A stretch of 64,000 nucleotides of DNA from Methylophilaceae bacterium 11 (lineage in GTDB: Bacteria; Pseudomonadota; Gammaproteobacteria; Burkholderiales; Methylophilaceae), in the NCBI GenBank assembly GCA_000525025.1, contig JCKJ01000001.1:1240001-1304000 (forward strand). The letters are read 5' to 3'. A model generated the notes under the pieces. The model had not been told where the DNA came from. It saw only the letters and a program-made list of their open reading frames with translations, and ran no database searches. Positions 57,901 to 64,000 of this stretch are shown here, one piece after another; position 1 is the stretch's first letter; the number at the start of each line of letters is the position of its first letter. Made by a program: the position numbers and the translations under genes.

Positions 57901-57925
57901 AAACCAAACCAAACCAAACGAAACC
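57901..57925. repeat. AAACC pentanucleotide tandem repeat (5 units)
   Basis: Five consecutive units read AAACC, AAACC, AAACC, AAACG, AAACC. The run ends 7 bases before a 16-bp palindrome and about 120 bp before the glycosyltransferase start. Confidence 0.85.
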
Positions 57926-57931
57926 ATTTTA

Positions 57932-57947
57932 TAGTCCGAACGGACTA
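57932..57947. promoter_or_regulatory. 16-bp palindrome upstream of the glycosyltransferase (candidate operator)
   Basis: TAGTCCG-AA-CGGACTA is a perfect palindrome. Related sites occur at 62929-62944 and 63022-63037 before a PEP-CTERM gene. Its length and symmetry suit a dimeric LuxR- or TetR-type regulator; the EpsA-like protein encoded at 62104 is the obvious candidate. The binder is not shown by the sequence. Confidence 0.6.
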
Positions 57948-58045
57948 GATAAACCGCGTATTTAGTCATCTTGATGAAATCTGGCTAAGACATCCTTACA
58001 CCCTATTCACAAACGTTTGTTTGATGTTTGTAACGAAGAGGGTTT

Positions 58046-59425
58046 ATGGTTAAAAAGCGAATAAAATCAACAAGTCATCAGCTTGTCAAAACATACACAG
58101 CGCTTTTGTCTGCCTCACGATTTTTGCTGGATAACGTGAGCTCACTGCTACGTATCCGTATATTCAATAAATTGGCTTCTGATTCTAGTTGTTCAACTAC
58201 CGCGCAGCATTCAGCATTCAACTTATCACCACAAGCTTTTATTTTAGATGCCAGCGTTTCTGAGTCTGGCTATGTTGGTACTTGGTATCACGACTACTCA
58301 CAAACAGCCAAGCCCTTACGCGTCATGATGCTGGGGTTACGTGGCTTTCCGCAGGTGCAGGGTGGCATAGAAACACACGCAGAGCATTTAGCGCCATTGT
58401 TAGTTCAGCAAGGGTGTCAGTTGGAAGTGATTGTTCGTGCCGCGTACCAACCGCAGGCAGTGGGCAATGTATGGCAAGGTGTTAAGTTCACACGTTTGTG
58501 GGCGCCTAAATCAAAAGGTTTAGAAGCCATCGTACATACCTTTTTGGGTGTGATATATGCCGCCATCAAGCGCCCTGATATTTTGCATATCCATGCCATT
58601 GGCCCGGCACTGATGACGCCGTTAGCAAGATTACTCGGCCTAAAAGTGGTGATCACGCATCATGGGCCAGATTACGATAGACAAAAATGGGGTAAGTTTG
58701 CCAAGTGGGTACTCAAAGCGGGGGAGTGGGCAGGTATGCGCTTTGCCAATGGCAGAATTGTTATTTCAAATGTCATTCGCGAACTTGTTGCGCACAAGCA
58801 TGGTGTGCATTCGGAAATCATTCGTAACGGCGTGGTCATGCCTAGCTTAGATACATGTGATTCACATTTGGCGCAGTTTGGCTTGGAAAAGCAGCGCTAT
58901 ATCTTGCAAGTAAGTCGGTTAGTGCCTGAAAAGCGTCATTTAGACTTGATCCATGCATTTACACAAGCACGTTTTAACGGCTACAAACTGGTATTAGTGG
59001 GAACATCCGACCATCCGGATGCGTATGTTGCACAAATTGAAGAAGCTGCCCGAGCGAATAGCAATGTTGTACTCACAGGATTTCAAACAGGAGATGTGTT
59101 GAAGAGTCTGTACACGCATGCCGCTTTGTTTGTATTGCCATCCTCGCATGAAGGGCTGTCTATTTCATTGTTAGAGGCATTGAGTTACGGCTTGCCCGTG
59201 TTAGCGAGTGATATACCTGCTAATAAAGAATTGGAGTTGAACCCAATGGCTTATTTTGAATTGGGCAATATTGAAATATTGACCGAGAAAATGCACTCAA
59301 AGTTACATCATCCGCAATCCGAAGAAGCCAAAATGGACAAGCGTGCATGGATAGATAGCCAATATAATTGGCGGAAAGTGGCTGAAAAAACCTATAGCGA
59401 ATATCGTAGGGCTGCTACTGATTAA
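58046..59425 (+). CDS. GT4-family glycosyltransferase (exopolysaccharide type) with N-terminal extension
   Basis: A 459-residue glycosyltransferase of the GT-B fold. The catalytic part starts near residue 92: VMMLGLRGFPQVQGGIETHA (about 93-112), RPDILHIHAIGPALMTPLA, LQVSRLVPEKRHLDLIHAF (about 290) and SSHEGLSISLLEALSYGLPV (about 362), with the retaining-GT EX7E glutamates. The first 90 residues are unlike usual members and include a basic stretch and a hydrophobic patch, perhaps for membrane binding. The ATG at 58046 has AGAGGG ahead. Its likely pathway is exopolysaccharide assembly with the nucleotide-sugar enzyme at 60641. Confidence 0.85.
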   Translation: MVKKRIKSTSHQLVKTYTALLSASRFLLDNVSSLLRIRIFNKLASDSSCSTTAQHSAFNLSPQAFILDASVSESGYVGTWYHDYSQTAKPLRVMMLGLRGFPQVQGGIETHAEHLAPLLVQQGCQLEVIVRAAYQPQAVGNVWQGVKFTRLWAPKSKGLEAIVHTFLGVIYAAIKRPDILHIHAIGPALMTPLARLLGLKVVITHHGPDYDRQKWGKFAKWVLKAGEWAGMRFANGRIVISNVIRELVAHKHGVHSEIIRNGVVMPSLDTCDSHLAQFGLEKQRYILQVSRLVPEKRHLDLIHAFTQARFNGYKLVLVGTSDHPDAYVAQIEEAARANSNVVLTGFQTGDVLKSLYTHAALFVLPSSHEGLSISLLEALSYGLPVLASDIPANKELELNPMAYFELGNIEILTEKMHSKLHHPQSEEAKMDKRAWIDSQYNWRKVAEKTYSEYRRAATD

Positions 59426-59927
59426 GATAACACCCACTATTGGCGCGGCGTAGTTACACCAATCTAATCATGCATCTAAGTTTTAGATCAGGTTTTAAGT
59501 TAGATAAGGTTTTAAGTAAGCAGCTAAACATTGCCAATCGTTTAGCATAGTCATTTCACTCGGTTTACTAATTGCGCTACATTATAAGACAGCTGCATTA
59601 GTAGACAACCACCTCACTACATCATCTCAGTCACAACATGCCCGTGTGCTAAGTAGATTACGCGAATATTGATCCCAAAAATAGCCAAACCGTTGCGTGT
59701 AGTTTGCCTTATATGCAAGAAAAAACAAACAAAATTGAACTGGCCGCAGTTCATTCTGTCGGATGCTTAAAGCAACTTTAAAGATGCTTTAACGTATTGA
59801 CCCATTAGCCCTTTCAGGCTAATCTGATACTAAATGACTATCACTTTCATAAAACTTTAATTACAGTGTCATGTGGATAGCACATCCTCTGTTGAGGGAA
59901 AATATTTTTAATATGAGGAGTTTTAAA
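59426..59927. other. 502-bp non-coding region before the DUF4114 PEP-CTERM gene
   Basis: No gene was found. GGTTTTAAGT recurs at 59491 and 59508 (17-bp period), next to the inverted repeat ATCTAA-GTT-TTAGAT near 59475. Further on are three inverted repeats: TGAACTG-GCCG-CAGTTCA (59736-59753), TTAAAGCA-N10-TGCTTTAA (59767-59792) and ATTAGCC-CTTTCA-GGCTAAT (59804-59823). None is followed by a T tract, so they look like regulator sites or leader structures. GAGGAG at 59915-59920 is the ribosome site of the next gene. Confidence 0.6.
59736..59753. promoter_or_regulatory. 7-4-7 inverted repeat upstream of the DUF4114 PEP-CTERM gene
   Basis: TGAACTG-GCCG-CAGTTCA is a perfect inverted repeat about 190 bp before the gene at 59928. 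It resembles a regulator operator; it does not match the TAGTCC palindrome. Confidence 0.5.
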
Positions 59928-60485
59928 ATGAGTTTAATGAAAGCCTTAGCATTCGCTTTATCTCTGAGTGCACCAATGCTAGTTTCCGCAACAGAATCCG
60001 TGCCTTTTAACCTATCACCTAATGGCAATAACCTATATGTGGCCAGCACGGGTGATGTGGTACTTACTTTTTTATCCAAGGATGCTGATTACTTCAATGA
60101 TTTGTTCTTGGCTGGTATTGCTACACCAATTTTAAATAATCAATCTGCTGTTTCTGGTGCTCAGTTCAATTTAGGTAGTTTTGAAGCTGGTACACAACTT
60201 ACATTTGGTATGTTTGTTTACAACACAAGCAATACGTTTTACAACGGGGCTGCATCTCTTAACCCAGATGGTTTAATTCATGCTGCTTATAGCGACGTGA
60301 TTGGCAACAATGTGACCATTGGTTTTGAAGACTTGTTTGCAGGTGGTGATACAGACTATAACGACTTGGTGTTTTCATTGAATAATGTGTCTGTGTCTGC
60401 CGTACCAGAGCCAGAAACTTATGCCATGTTGACCTTGGGGCTTGGTTTAATTGGTTGGGCAAGCAAACGCCGCCAGTCAAAATAA
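59928..60485 (+). CDS. PEP-CTERM sorting domain protein with DUF4114 domain
   Basis: A 185-residue exported protein. A signal peptide (residues 1-22, ending SAPMLVSATES) is followed by a DUF4114 domain with VGFEDLFAGGDTDYNDLVF-like residues (about 138-156), the acidic loop typical of calcium-binding C-terminal parts of these proteins. The tail AVPEPETYAMLTLGLGLIGWASKRR has the PEP motif, one helix and an arginine cluster, the exosortase sorting signal. GAGGAG 7 bases before the ATG at 59928 fixes the start. Such proteins accompany exopolysaccharide loci and are thought to be anchored or processed during biofilm formation. Confidence 0.9.
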   Translation: MSLMKALAFALSLSAPMLVSATESVPFNLSPNGNNLYVASTGDVVLTFLSKDADYFNDLFLAGIATPILNNQSAVSGAQFNLGSFEAGTQLTFGMFVYNTSNTFYNGAASLNPDGLIHAAYSDVIGNNVTIGFEDLFAGGDTDYNDLVFSLNNVSVSAVPEPETYAMLTLGLGLIGWASKRRQSK

Positions 60486-60506
60486 TCACAATAGTCATCT
60501 CAAATT

Positions 60507-60538
60507 AAAAAAAGCGATTGTTTCAATCGCTTTTTTTA
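60507..60538 (+). terminator. Rho-independent terminator after the DUF4114 PEP-CTERM gene
   Basis: The arm AAAAAAAGCGATTG pairs with CAATCGCTTTTTTT across a TTT loop. The A and T tracts make it active in both directions in principle. Confidence 0.9.
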
Positions 60539-60640
60539 TGGGCGCTGTTTGCCAAATTGCAGTGACCGTCATAGTAAGGTCATGAATCATCGCTATCATG
60601 CTGATGAAGGTAGTAATCGTCACAGCAAAGAGAGCATGCA

Positions 60641-61780
60641 ATGAAAGCAATGATTTTAGCGGCAGGCAAGGGCACACGCGTCCGTCCGCTGACCTATGAG
60701 TTACCTAAGCCTATGATTCCCATATTAGGCAAGCCAGTCATGGCGTATTTGATTGAGCATTTGGCACAGCATCAAATTAAAGACGTGATGGTAAATGTCA
60801 GCTATTTACATGAAAAAATTCAACAGTATTTTGGCGATGGACATCGCTTTGGCGTCAATATTGGCTATTCGTTTGAAGGCGATATAGACAATGGAAAAAT
60901 TGTACCCAGCCCCGTAGGGTCAGCAGGTGGCATGCGCAAGATTCAGGATTTTGGTGGGTTTTTTGATGAAACCACGATTGTCATTTGTGGGGACGCCATC
61001 ATTGATTTGGATATTACCAAAGCGGTCGCTGAGCATAAGCAAAAGGGCGCTTTAGTCAGTTTGGTGGCCAAAGAGGTACCTACAGATAAAGTGTCCGGAT
61101 ATGGCATTGTCGTCACCGATGACGCCGGAAAGATTATCTCTTTTCAGGAAAAGCCAACACAGCAAGAAGCCCGTTCCAATTTGGCGAGTACTGGCATTTA
61201 TATCTTTGAGCCAGAGGCGCTCAACCTGATTCCATCCGGGAGTACGTTTGATATCGGGTCGGATTTGTTCCCGCTGCTGGTCGAAAGAAATTTGCCGTTT
61301 TATGCTATCAACCATCCTTTTAACTGGATCGATATTGGCTTAGTCTCCGATTACTGGCTAGTCATGCAGCAAGTCATGCGTGGCGAAGTGCCTAGCATGC
61401 CGATGCCTGGCACCCAAATTAAGCCTGGCGTGTGGGTGGGGTTAAATGTACATATTGATTGGGAGCACACCAGCATTGAAGGCCCCGTGTATTTAGGCTC
61501 TGGCGTTAGAGTGGATAAAGGCACGCAGATTATTGGCCCAAGCTGGATCAGTAATGGCTGTCATATTCAACGCGGTGGGCGTGTAGTGCGTAGCGTGTTG
61601 TTTGAATACACCCGTGTTGGGCAAGACTATACGTTTGAAGACATGATCGTATGCGGTGAGTATTGTGTCGATAAAAGCGGGCGCATGATGCATGTGGATG
61701 ATGATGCTTGTGATCTGATTTGGTCGGATGCCCGTGAAAAAGTGATCTATCCAATGAATTACGCACATGCAAGGCTATAA
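60641..61780 (+). CDS. Nucleotide-sugar pyrophosphorylase (GMPP-like NDP-sugar synthase)
   Basis: A 379-residue nucleotidyltransferase. KAMILAAGKGTRVRPLTYEL (residues 2-21) is the activated-sugar binding opening, and EKPTQ and CGDAIIDLDI (metal aspartates, about 118-127) follow. A C-terminal left-handed beta-helix starts near 265 (VHIDWEHTSIEGPVYLGSGV). The arrangement resembles eukaryotic-type mannose-1-phosphate guanylyltransferase, so GDP-mannose is a plausible product, but glucose-1-phosphate forms exist. It probably feeds the glycosyltransferase at 58046. A terminator separates it from the DUF4114 gene, so it has its own promoter. Confidence 0.82.
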   Translation: MKAMILAAGKGTRVRPLTYELPKPMIPILGKPVMAYLIEHLAQHQIKDVMVNVSYLHEKIQQYFGDGHRFGVNIGYSFEGDIDNGKIVPSPVGSAGGMRKIQDFGGFFDETTIVICGDAIIDLDITKAVAEHKQKGALVSLVAKEVPTDKVSGYGIVVTDDAGKIISFQEKPTQQEARSNLASTGIYIFEPEALNLIPSGSTFDIGSDLFPLLVERNLPFYAINHPFNWIDIGLVSDYWLVMQQVMRGEVPSMPMPGTQIKPGVWVGLNVHIDWEHTSIEGPVYLGSGVRVDKGTQIIGPSWISNGCHIQRGGRVVRSVLFEYTRVGQDYTFEDMIVCGEYCVDKSGRMMHVDDDACDLIWSDAREKVIYPMNYAHARL

Positions 61781-61895
61781 GGTAATGCGGGCTATAAGCT
61801 GACGTGATAGCAGCGCACTAGTGCGAATAGACTACATGCGTACATCGGCATGTCATCTGCCTTAAATAGCATACTCATATTTTAAACTCCCCGTT

Positions 61896-61935
61896 GGCGT
61901 GTTTGTGATGAATGATTTTGCATCACGCCTTTTTT
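61896..61935 (+). terminator. Rho-independent terminator after the nucleotide-sugar gene
   Basis: GGCGT pairs with ACGCC (61896-61900, 61925-61929), extended by GATG/CATC inside, with a large loop, then TTTTTT. It lies 115 bases after the gene, which is rather far. Confidence 0.55.
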
Positions 61936-61975
61936 CTTATCAGGCCTGTGAGTTGTTACAAAACTGTAAAAAAAC

Positions 61976-62036
61976 TGACACTTAGTATTCATGCTAGTGT
62001 CATTCACATGGTCAAGAATAGTGCACTAATTATAAT
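61976..62036 (+). promoter_or_regulatory. epsA promoter with an upstream inverted repeat
   Basis: TGGTCA (62009-62014) and a perfect TATAAT (62031-62036) are 16 bp apart. Just upstream is a 27-bp imperfect inverted repeat, TGACACTTAG (61976-61985) and CTAGTGTCA (61994-62002), whose centre is about 54 bp before the start site. Autoregulation by EpsA is possible. Confidence 0.5.
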
Positions 62037-62103
62037 TAAATCAAAGAGCACTATCATCATTACTCAGCCCAGCCACCAGACGAGCCACCCAGAAGCGGAA
62101 GCC

Positions 62104-62883
62104 ATGCTAAGTGCCGAGCAGCGCTTAGTGTTTATGGAGGTGATTGAGGAATCGTTACGTTTAACGCAACGCACACACCTATTTAATTGGCTGCAACGGG
62201 GCGTGCAATATTTAATTGGGCACGAAGTCATGCTGTTTGGCGTGCGTTCCTCGGATAGTGATTTATATGATTATGAGTACTTCACCTCATCGCGCTATTT
62301 TGGTGAGTTGCAGTTTAATCAGGTGATTAAAAAAGACGAAGGTATCGTCAGAAAAGCATTGGCTACATGGAACAAAACCGGCACGCCAGTCTTTGTGACC
62401 AACCAAATCATGCCGGTCGATTTTAATCATTATGGCGTGATGAGCGCCGAAGACGATGAGCTATTGGCTGCTGAGCTTAAAAACTTTGTAGTGCATGGGT
62501 TTGGTGACAACCGTACACGCATTTCTACGGTAGTTGCATTTGGCCGCCTGTCTTCTCCTATTTCTGCGCATACCGCCTATTTGCTGGAACTGATCATGCC
62601 GCATTTGCATTGCGCATTGATTAAAGTGACTGCGAATCGTAGCGGCGTCTCAATGATATTAAATACGCCGCACACCACTAAAAAAATCACGAAACGTGAG
62701 TTTGAGATTTTGCAGTGGTTACATATGGGCAAAACCAATTGGGAGATTTCTTCTATTTTGGAAATTAGCCCGTTGACCGTCAAGAATCATGTCCAAAATA
62801 TTCTGCGCAAATTAGATGTAGAGAATCGCGGTCAAGCGGCTGTCAAGGCTGCCAAGTTGGGTTTAGTCACCATCTCCAATTAG
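62104..62883 (+). CDS. epsA: LuxR-family regulator, EpsA-like (PEP-CTERM/exosortase-linked)
   Basis: A 259-residue regulator. An N-terminal sensory region (about residues 1-180) is unlike acyl-homoserine lactone domains. It is followed by a LuxR/GerE helix-turn-helix: TKREFEILQWLHMGKTNWEI and SPLTVKNHVQNILRKL (about 190-240). Size and N-terminus fit EpsA, known from exosortase B/PEP-CTERM loci of betaproteobacteria. A TATAAT at 62031 lies within the longer frame that opens at 61912, so I use the ATG at 62104; its ribosome site (GGAA, 3 bases ahead) is weak. An ATG at 62008 is the alternative. It sits between two PEP-CTERM genes. Confidence 0.8.
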   Translation: MLSAEQRLVFMEVIEESLRLTQRTHLFNWLQRGVQYLIGHEVMLFGVRSSDSDLYDYEYFTSSRYFGELQFNQVIKKDEGIVRKALATWNKTGTPVFVTNQIMPVDFNHYGVMSAEDDELLAAELKNFVVHGFGDNRTRISTVVAFGRLSSPISAHTAYLLELIMPHLHCALIKVTANRSGVSMILNTPHTTKKITKREFEILQWLHMGKTNWEISSILEISPLTVKNHVQNILRKLDVENRGQAAVKAAKLGLVTISN

Positions 62884-62928
62884 CTTTTCTAGCTGTGAAT
62901 TTAATCGTCACAAAATCTGCATCATTCC

Positions 62929-62944
62929 TAGTTCTTTCGGACTA
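62929..62944. promoter_or_regulatory. Degenerate TAGTCC palindrome, copy 2
   Basis: TAGTTCT-TT-CGGACTA keeps the right half of the glycosyltransferase palindrome (57932) exactly and changes the left half. It lies 240 bp before the PEP-CTERM gene at 63184. Confidence 0.5.
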
Positions 62945-63021
62945 GTTTATCTCCAATAAATATCACACCGTCTTTTTATACTTTTAAGTGAGTAATAGGT
63001 TTGATTAAGCGCCATTACCAG

Positions 63022-63037
63022 TAGTCCAGACAGACTA
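63022..63037. promoter_or_regulatory. Degenerate TAGTCC palindrome, copy 3
   Basis: TAGTCCA-GA-CAGACTA keeps the outer bases of the site at 57932 and is followed by GATGAAA, close to the GATAAAC that follows the first site. It lies about 146 bp before the PEP-CTERM start. Confidence 0.55.
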
Positions 63038-63183
63038 GATGAAAAGTTAGGGATGTCATACGCGGTGATTAAAGTGGCGAAGTCGCTTAATTAGATGGCA
63101 TAAGCGAGATAGGTTGCCAAATAGCAGCACATATTGGCAAACAGTAGTGTTAAGTGTTTTTTTAATTTTTTTGGGAGAAAAGT

Positions 63184-64000
63184 ATGAAATTTCAATTGAA
63201 AGCATTGGCAGCAGCAATGGTATTGGCAGCAGCTGTGCCAGCACAAGCGGCTATCGAATTTTCTAGTACAGGTAATGGCGGTTTGTCATTAGCAGTGTTC
63301 GATTCAGTAAATAACGTATCTGCATTGTTTGACTTAGGTAAAAACTACAGTGATTTTAGTGTTATCGGTGCTTCATTTGCTGATAGCAACATAGACGCTT
63401 TGGGTACAAATCTTTCATGGAATTTGACCTCTGGTGATTATGCCACTGCTTGGAATACATTCTTGTCTTCAGCAAACATTGCAAATTTACAATTTGCAGT
63501 AGTTGGTGGCGATAACAATGCAGGTACAGCGGGTAATAGAGGCTTTATCAGCACGTTAAATGCTGAAACAGCTGTTGGGTTAACTAATACTGCATTGTTT
63601 GCACAAATTGGTGTTTGGGACCAGTACTTGGCTGATGCTCAAACAGATAATGGTACTGTTTATCAAAATCATACGCTTGTAGAAAACGGTGCTAGCGTTG
63701 GTAATTCTGGTAAAGCGAATACGCAACAATATTTCGCCAATACTGGTAAAAATAATGCGGCAGGTAATGTTTCAGTTGGTAATATTGGTCAGTCGCTTGC
63801 AGTGTTTCAGCAAGTATCAGGTGCTAGCACACTTTCAATTGGTGCCTCTACTATTTTCGCAAACAATGCAACTTTCACATTAGGTACTAATGGCGTATTG
63901 ACTTACGCAACTGCACCTGTAGTTGAAGTGCCAGAAGCCGATACATGGGCCATGATGATGTTGGGTTTAGGCTTTATGGGCTTTGTAGCACGTCGTAAAC
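63184..64000 (+). CDS. PEP-CTERM sorting domain protein (runs off right edge)
   Basis: The frame opens with ATG at 63184 after a GGGAG ribosome site and reaches the right edge without a stop, giving 272 visible residues. A signal peptide (about residues 1-22, ending VPAQA) is followed by a low-complexity beta-rich region full of Gly, Ala, Asn and Thr (about 25-240). The tail VEVPEADTWAMMMLGLGFMGFVARRK has the PEP-type motif, helix and arginine cluster, so at most a few residues are missing. It has no recognised domain otherwise. It resembles other abundant exported PEP-CTERM proteins, and the TAGTCC sites before it suggest shared control with the glycosyltransferase. Confidence 0.85.
   Translation, partial: MKFQLKALAAAMVLAAAVPAQAAIEFSSTGNGGLSLAVFDSVNNVSALFDLGKNYSDFSVIGASFADSNIDALGTNLSWNLTSGDYATAWNTFLSSANIANLQFAVVGGDNNAGTAGNRGFISTLNAETAVGLTNTALFAQIGVWDQYLADAQTDNGTVYQNHTLVENGASVGNSGKANTQQYFANTGKNNAAGNVSVGNIGQSLAVFQQVSGASTLSIGASTIFANNATFTLGTNGVLTYATAPVVEVPEADTWAMMMLGLGFMGFVARRK

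Follow-up and report, generated by a model that had tools for sequence, protein, structure and literature searches.

TAGTCC-N4-GGACTA, a conserved palindrome before PEP-CTERM and exopolysaccharide genes of Methylophilaceae, is a likely operator of the LuxR-type regulator EpsA

Introduction

The last 6.1 kb of a 64,000-nt stretch of the genome of Methylophilaceae bacterium 11 (contig JCKJ01000001.1, positions 1,240,001 to 1,304,000, hereafter the window) holds a glycosyltransferase gene, genes for PEP-CTERM proteins and epsA, which encodes a LuxR-type regulator, together with copies of an inverted repeat, TAGTCC-N4-GGACTA, that lie in front of these genes. What is this element, and which protein reads it? 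A sequence-only reading of the window had proposed that the palindrome is the operator of the EpsA-like LuxR protein encoded between the copies, and had suggested a scan of the whole genome and a comparison with related Methylophilaceae. The name EpsA derives from Methylobacillus sp. 12S. Our searches of an open-access library brought up no described operator of EpsA, and the accessible part of a survey of LuxR solos does not mention the protein (PMC4338825).

Here we argue that the palindrome is almost certainly a conserved operator of a PEP-CTERM and exopolysaccharide (EPS) regulon, and that its predicted binder is EpsA, as a CviR-like regulator of the LuxR type (probability roughly 0.8). 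The case for EpsA is strong, not proven.

Results

The palindrome in the window

Copies were sought with a tight (TAGTCCN4GGACTA), an intermediate (TAGTCYN4RGACTA) and a relaxed motif (TAGTYYN4RRACTA), and with a core, TAGTCN6GACTA, as the basis for one-mismatch searches. The three palindromes named in the sequence-only reading are all present (57932, 62929 and 63022; Table 1). They are the only relaxed matches in the window, all within its last 6.1 kb; dinucleotide shuffling gave a mean of 0.025 matches, with none of 200 shuffles reaching three, and for the region 57901-64000 alone three were reached in 0 of 1000 shuffles. With two mismatches allowed, enrichment of the window was no longer clear, as 11 of 100 shuffles reached its 22 matches (shuffle mean 15.3). 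The accompanying remark that no further copies had been noticed was incomplete: a one-mismatch copy lies upstream of epsA (61819) and a weak, doubtful one (5.6 bits) at 59806.

The 61819 site, which was found by similarity alone, is followed, like other sites, by TGTCAT at +32 and a -10-like hexamer at +48 from the start of the palindrome. The corresponding hexamers are TATCAC (62961-62966) and TATACT (62977-62982) at the distal member of the tandem pair, and TGTCAT (63054-63059) and TAAAGT (63070-63075) at the proximal one. At the perfect palindrome before the glycosyltransferase gene, AGTCAT occupies 57964-57969 (+32), and a -10-like box is absent at +48. The location of the 61819 site upstream of epsA suggests autoregulation.

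Conservation and association with EpsA

The suggested comparison with relatives bore the proposal out. EpsA (TIGR03020) was found over the cut-off in 70 of 150 Methylophilaceae genomes, and the tight motif in 45, that is in 42 of the 70 genomes with EpsA vs 3 of the 80 without (Fisher P 5e-15, kinship ignored). Two of the three exceptions (G139 and G101) have EpsA fragments, and the third (G005) has none.

From the 114 EpsA matches over the cut-off, 100 loci (1.8 Mb) were fetched; the 14 omitted are mostly second copies by genome. In a de novo count of all 4096 6-base half-sites at 13 spacings (0-12) in these loci, TAGTCC-N4-GGACTA ranked first with 29 loci, and the next unrelated palindromes reached 10. 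The spacing is equally specific, with 44 tight sites at N4 vs a single one at the ten other spacings from 0 to 10 combined. The relaxed pattern is often outnumbered family-wide by its reversed control.

In genome G026 (L134 11911-12356), the DNA from a PEP-CTERM gene to the gene for a 726-aa protein contains four copies of one and the same site, TAGTCCGTTCGGACTA, one after another at distances of 135-158 bp; two small open reading frames (ORFs) called across these repeats share a peptide, so that the flanks seem to be repeated too.

Site density follows the EpsA subfamily

A tree of 99 EpsA proteins, together with the sequences of their helix-turn-helix (HTH), was used to define three groups, of which B1 and B2 were split by helix motif in agreement with the tree; the EpsA of locus L144, outside the tree, was put in B1 by hand. 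Group A comprises 40 loci, including that of the window EpsA, with an HTH that mostly reads KNHVQNIL; B1 comprises 21 loci including L144 (mostly KNHLQRIF) and B2 39 loci (mostly HLKRIF), among them that of a host paralogue at 1103385. Relaxed sites number 61 in A loci (34 of 40 loci), where 1.2 are expected at the genome's own density, 18 in B1 loci (8 of 21; 0.69 expected) and 2 in B2 loci (2 of 39; 0.97 expected), and the reversed-pattern control gives 0, 1 and 3, respectively. The share of PEP-CTERM genes with a relaxed site at most 400 bp upstream is 34/43 in A loci, 6/16 in B1 and 0/4 in B2. Of the 40 genomes that encode an A-type EpsA, 32 contain the tight site. In genus g20, three A-type EpsAs have an altered recognition helix, and their loci are without sites.

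In the host genus, 13 of 17 A-type loci have two sites 79-96 bp apart (11 of the 13 at 92-96 bp), with varying inner bases; the host tandem pair in that count includes the TAGTTC copy. Such pairs sit between epsA and the PEP-CTERM gene, except in G075, where the pair remains with the PEP-CTERM gene and is separated from epsA by approximately 2.6 kb of other DNA. The g18 B1 loci L116 and L118 each have one site in the region that separates epsA from the divergent eps operon and another before a PEP-CTERM gene, and a third g18 locus (L117) has sites at similar places.

The second EpsA paralogue of the host (group B2, 1103358-1104128) adjoins galU-like and polysaccharide-export-like genes and has no palindrome. 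The palindrome ranked first in B2 loci, TTTGTCANTGACAAA, was considered as an operator and dropped, as the five g7 loci inspected all show it to overlap with the start of a large RNase R-like gene at its initiation codon; similarly, TTTGTCAATGACAAA recurs in g7 B2 loci (e.g., L201 10630) because it spans the start codon of the RNase R-like gene, and is therefore not an operator.

EpsA resembles CviR

The window EpsA scores 224.4 bits against TIGR03020 (cut-off 170), contains a C-terminal GerE HTH (PF00196, E 5e-20, residues 227-281), and is 85% identical to the nearest named EpsA, from a Methylophilus metagenome-assembled genome. A profile built from 41 EpsAs matches CviR (3qp5) with an E of 2e-35 over positions 4-245 of 248, which covers both domains, and in a single-sequence alignment the HTHs of EpsA and CviR are about half identical by eye. 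The best fold matches of a structural model of EpsA (mean pLDDT 82, 45 residues under 50) are CviR, RhlR, QscR and SdiA, led by 3qp5_C (E 6e-12); whole-chain TM-scores are low (0.39-0.48 for the best few), and the ligand-domain entry 3qp1 reaches 0.63 by target length. A search of 12 genomes, G005 among them, with the autoinducer-domain model PF03472 gave no autoinducer-type receptor over the cut-off; since the same model misses EpsA, the absence of other autoinducer-type LuxR proteins says little.

The CviR site of Chromobacterium is CTGNCCNNNNGGNCAG (Stauff and Bassler, as cited in the accessible text of PMC12114271 and PMC10847564). As given there, it shares with the TAGTCC palindrome a length of 16 bp, the 6-N4-6 layout and a GTCC-N4-GGAC core, as can be seen from the C. 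subtsugae CviR box CTGTCCGATAGGACAG beside TAGTCCGATAGGACTA, which occurs in some Methylophilus. The pattern by which CviR boxes are recognized, a GNCC-N4-GGNC core in a 6-N4-6 palindrome, is present in the TAGTCC site. CviR, the LuxR-type protein that binds the CviR box, is the best match to EpsA in the PDB. The two elements differ in their outer bases, which are CT/AG in the CviR box and TA/TA in the TAGTCC site, whose arm came out on top with no prior choice of half-site; the presumed PEP-CTERM and EPS targets, and the fixed TGTCAT at +32 in Methylophilus and Methylotenera, are likewise features of the EpsA-associated site and unlike the CviR box.

Targets near and away from epsA

We classified 108 intermediate sites from L116-L255, L001 and L005, with 61 of them in EpsA loci and 47 at a distance of over 10 kb from epsA or on a different contig; 40 stretches had been fetched from among the tight-site matches listed. 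PEP-CTERM genes were recognized by a small hidden Markov model of ten host tails, one of them (L030) misread; locus L005 was scored as a miss, its PEP-CTERM end lying outside the locus, and some sites are at contig ends. In EpsA loci, 48 of the 61 sites point towards a PEP-CTERM gene at most 400 bp away, compared with 21 of 775 other perfect 6-N4-6 palindromes in the same 100 loci. Away from epsA, 38 of the 47 sites lie outside called ORFs and 24 face a PEP-CTERM gene within the same distance. In two relatives (L140 7279, L241 2566) the site adjoins GGDEF-like genes, by eye possible diguanylate cyclases, which is a hint that c-di-GMP belongs to the same regulon.

Outside the family, 55 EpsA loci were taken from records not titled Methylophilaceae, some without a precise name. 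The tight motif occurs in 5 of them, and ranks first among their intergenic palindromes (4 loci vs 2 for any other). It stands 52 bp 5' of a gene with a PEP-CTERM end in L340, and 355 bp 5' of the called epsA start, with a small called ORF between, in Rhodoferax lacus (L325); the copy in L306 is within a called ORF. The search was extended to 384 additional genomes of the order: of the 56 with EpsA (E up to 1e-30), 12 contain the motif, vs 17 of the 328 without (P 2e-4). Five of the 12 have it on the contig that encodes EpsA, at a distance of 1.5-9 kb (G460, G391, G346, G227, G154).

Sites across the host genome

The host genome is a single contig of 2.79 Mb, and the relaxed motif occurs in it at five places (Table 1). 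All five precede PEP-CTERM genes (four matches, three genes) or the glycosyltransferase gene (one match), which is the outcome that the suggested whole-genome scan was to look for. Their number is unremarkable, the reversed pattern giving 6, and the core with one mismatch is not enriched (33 places vs 127 for its control); the non-random signal is the placement of the exact copies. With zero mismatches, TAGTCN6GACTA has one additional host match, at 1496736, with other inner bases and between two genes without evident link.

Eleven host PEP-CTERM genes exceed the Pfam cut-off, and a site of at least 12 bits precedes four of these (511150, 1303928, 831772, 1325389); that of the 831772 gene, TAGTTATGTTGGACTA, has one bad arm and lacks TGTCAT. 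A composite motif that includes TGTCAT, with at most three mismatches, gave 7 matches in the whole host genome vs 1 for its reversed control: the five sites already named, a reverse match overlapping 62929, and 811772. The last (- strand) is a degenerate site with an intact TGTCAT, between divergent genes for seemingly exported proteins; genome G130 (L252 2563) has seemingly the same divergent pair, with a perfect TAGTCCATTTGGACTA. The 811772 site is a possible further member of the regulon.

Table 1. Palindrome copies, associated elements and neighboring genes. Positions are those of the window unless marked as host genome.
Feature	Position	Strand	Basis or remark
Perfect palindrome TAGTCC-GAAC-GGACTA, TAGTCCGAACGGACTA	57932-57947	no strand	98 bp 5' of glycosyltransferase ATG (58046)
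Glycosyltransferase gene, presumed target	58046..59425	+	Pfam PF13439, PF00534
Weak degenerate copy TAGCCC-TTTC-AGGCTA, TAGCCCTTTCAGGCTA	59806-59821	no strand	5.6 bits; 106 bp 5' of PEP-CTERM gene; doubtful
PEP-CTERM protein gene (DUF4114, PEP-CTERM motif)	59928..60485	+	Family matches
Imperfect palindrome TAGTGC-GAAT-AGACTA, TAGTGCGAATAGACTA	61819-61834	no strand	One mismatch; upstream of epsA
TGTCAT element	61851-61856	+	At +32 from 61819 site
-10-like TAGCAT	61867-61872	+	At +48 from 61819 site
epsA, XrtB/PEP-CTERM-associated LuxR-type regulator	61912..62883	+	TIGR03020, PF00196; start codon 61912 or 62008, uncertain
Distal site TAGTTC-TTTC-GGACTA, TAGTTCTTTCGGACTA	62929-62944	no strand	Sequence match
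Proximal site TAGTCC-AGAC-AGACTA, TAGTCCAGACAGACTA	63022-63037	no strand	93 bp from distal site; 146 bp 5' of ATG
PEP-CTERM protein gene, presumed target of both tandem sites	63184..64000, continues beyond window	+	PF07589
Site before lamin-tail-domain PEP-CTERM gene	510458 (host genome)		Relaxed motif
Site before glycosyltransferase gene	1297932 (host genome)		Relaxed motif
Sites before PEP-CTERM gene at window 63184	1302929 and 1303022 (host genome)		Relaxed motif
Site before choice-of-anchor-I PEP-CTERM gene	1323864 (host genome)		Relaxed motif

Beyond the window, past the PEP-CTERM gene and one more gene, positions 1305778-1317621 of the host genome hold what by eye is a two-partner-secretion-like pair, encoding a 566-aa transporter-like and a 3362-aa haemagglutinin-like protein, followed by TolQ/ExbD/TonB-like genes.

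Promoter geometry

For 96 of the 108 classified sites an orientation to the facing gene was assigned; those without a facing gene within 400 bp, near an end or in duplicate were excluded. A -10-like box begins at +48 from the start of the site in 24 of the 96, other offsets having mostly 0-3, and further peaks at -2 and +14 stem from the ends of the palindrome itself. Among 52 oriented sites of the genera with A-type EpsA (Methylophilus and Methylotenera), 23 have GTCA at offset 33 and 8 have it at 34, and the GTCA-bearing sites include members of tandem pairs as well as unrelated promoters. TGTCAT was considered as an ordinary -35 and fits poorly, with 10 bp and not 17 between it and the -10-like box; a sigma-54 reading of the two elements fails on spacing as well.

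If the +48 box is a -10, the center of the palindrome falls near -52, which is a position for an activator, and the promoter layout at 61819, 62929 and 63022 has this geometry. Activation is thus the most likely mode of the predicted binding by EpsA. That EpsA instead binds the site as a repressor of the PEP-CTERM and EPS genes is unlikely. Repressor sites more often overlap the -10 or the transcription start, whereas at both tandem promoters the -10-like box follows the end of the palindrome by 32 bp, and the center of the palindrome is at approximately -52, upstream of the place of a -35. The sites are nonetheless close to promoters, and some LuxR-type proteins do repress, CarR and CepR2 being so named in the accessible part of the survey of LuxR solos (PMC4338825).

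Discussion

The identification of EpsA as the predicted binder, and with it the central claim of the sequence-only reading, is supported by the clustering of sites by EpsA subfamily together with the profile similarity of EpsA to CviR, for which a similar site has been published. We propose that an EpsA dimer would bind TAGTCC-N4-GGACTA with one HTH on each arm. Centered some 52 bp upstream of the expected transcription start, provided that the +48 box serves as the -10, bound EpsA would activate the genes for PEP-CTERM matrix proteins, the EPS genes and epsA itself. As its signal, the CviR-like N-terminal domain would hold a small ligand, and TGTCAT may provide an extra contact, either as a third half-site or as an unusual promoter element.

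Several observations weigh against this proposal. On the side of the association, 28 of the 70 genomes with EpsA have no tight site, the site is present in 10 of 29 genomes where only a B-type EpsA was sampled, and G026, whose only EpsA is of type B1, has 17 sites. G005, a draft of 180 contigs, has three tight sites that all face PEP-CTERM genes and no EpsA over the cut-off; the search for EpsA in this genome gave HTH-level matches only, the best being a response regulator of the NarL type. Motif content and EpsA content both track phylogeny, and genomes with EpsA are probably also richer in PEP-CTERM genes. With regard to the protein, a single EpsA sequence matches CviR in its C-terminal part only (residues 164-284, E 3e-17), and the Pfam autoinducer-domain model PF03472 is not reached by EpsA, for which GerE alone is reported. 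Concerning the promoters, the host sites 510458 and 832417 have no TGTCAT, those before the glycosyltransferase gene and at 1323864 show GTCAT at +33 but lack the -10-like box at +48, and neither element was seen at the 44 sites of other genera. Finally, 7 of the 11 host PEP-CTERM genes lack a site of at least 12 bits (one of them, a gene of 687 aa, was judged from the genome-wide listing of TAGTCN6GACTA, which shows no site), so that the regulon would be part of the PEP-CTERM set only. A gene with a LuxR-type HTH near a relaxed site of G005 was considered as a candidate EpsA and rejected, as it encodes a NarL-type response regulator adjoining a histidine kinase.

Some of these points would fit a genuine operator of the PEP-CTERM regulon that is bound by another transcription factor, EpsA being a mere neighbor in the regulon. 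The sites of G005 without EpsA, those in some genomes with B-type EpsA only, and the pair in G075 that stays with its PEP-CTERM gene when other DNA separates it from epsA, all speak for such a factor. We nevertheless regard it as improbable, as the density of sites varies with the EpsA subfamily, the three clade-A EpsAs of g20 with a changed recognition helix are without sites, and CviR, the nearest structural relative, has a very similar site in the accessible accounts of it; PrsR, moreover, is over its cut-off in just two of the 150 genomes.

It is highly improbable that the element acts as an RNA hairpin, a terminator or a mobile repeat and not as protein-binding DNA. It is an inverted repeat that lies mostly outside called ORFs, and the row of identical copies in G026 has seemingly repeated flanks; against this, the arms are conserved and the N4 and flanking positions vary, and transcription driven by the -10-like box would leave out the site, which lies upstream of it.

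We can practically dismiss the known PrsR/sigma-54 site of PEP-CTERM genes, which is likewise a shared element before dispersed genes of this class: in the accessible part of Haft et al. 2006 (PMC1569441) it is 17 nt long, ends in TTTACA, precedes a -24 GG/-12 GC sigma-54 site and is ascribed to PrsR, a regulator of another class, whereas the TAGTCC site is a palindrome of 16 nt with a sigma-70-like -10 at +48. Control by PrsR and sigma-54 was rejected, short of a diverged PrsR in the host, on these differences in motif and promoter and on the absence of PrsR over the cut-off in the host (best 411 bits, cut-off 502.6), which is not one of the two family genomes that have it. As far as their accessible parts go, the paper on Rubrivivax EmbRS (PMC3684757) contains neither the word promoter nor the word motif, that on Desulfovibrio DVUA0057 (PMC3333781) concerns a different regulator, and that on Aquincola RpoN (PMC9850573) has little bearing on the site.

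Returning to EpsA as the reader of the palindrome, we tentatively put forward a broader view, at somewhat below even odds. EpsA-type proteins of the Burkholderiales may be LuxR solos of the CviR kind that respond to a diffusible or metabolic signal and act through a diverged lux-type box to turn on dispersed genes for PEP-CTERM matrix proteins and polysaccharides; they would then be a sigma-70 counterpart of PrsK/PrsR under the control of a ligand. The site, TGTCAT and the -10 may together form a complete promoter module in Methylophilus and Methylotenera, duplicated in tandem before one PEP-CTERM gene.

The site offers a named candidate regulator, a set of predicted targets, some of them far from the eps cluster, and a likely mode of action. 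It would link matrix proteins sorted by exosortase to a family of quorum-sensing receptors. It would allow one to predict which PEP-CTERM genes of a betaproteobacterium are activated together, and makes the question of the EpsA ligand testable, thereby providing a testable route to how methanol-using bacteria turn on their slime-associated proteins.

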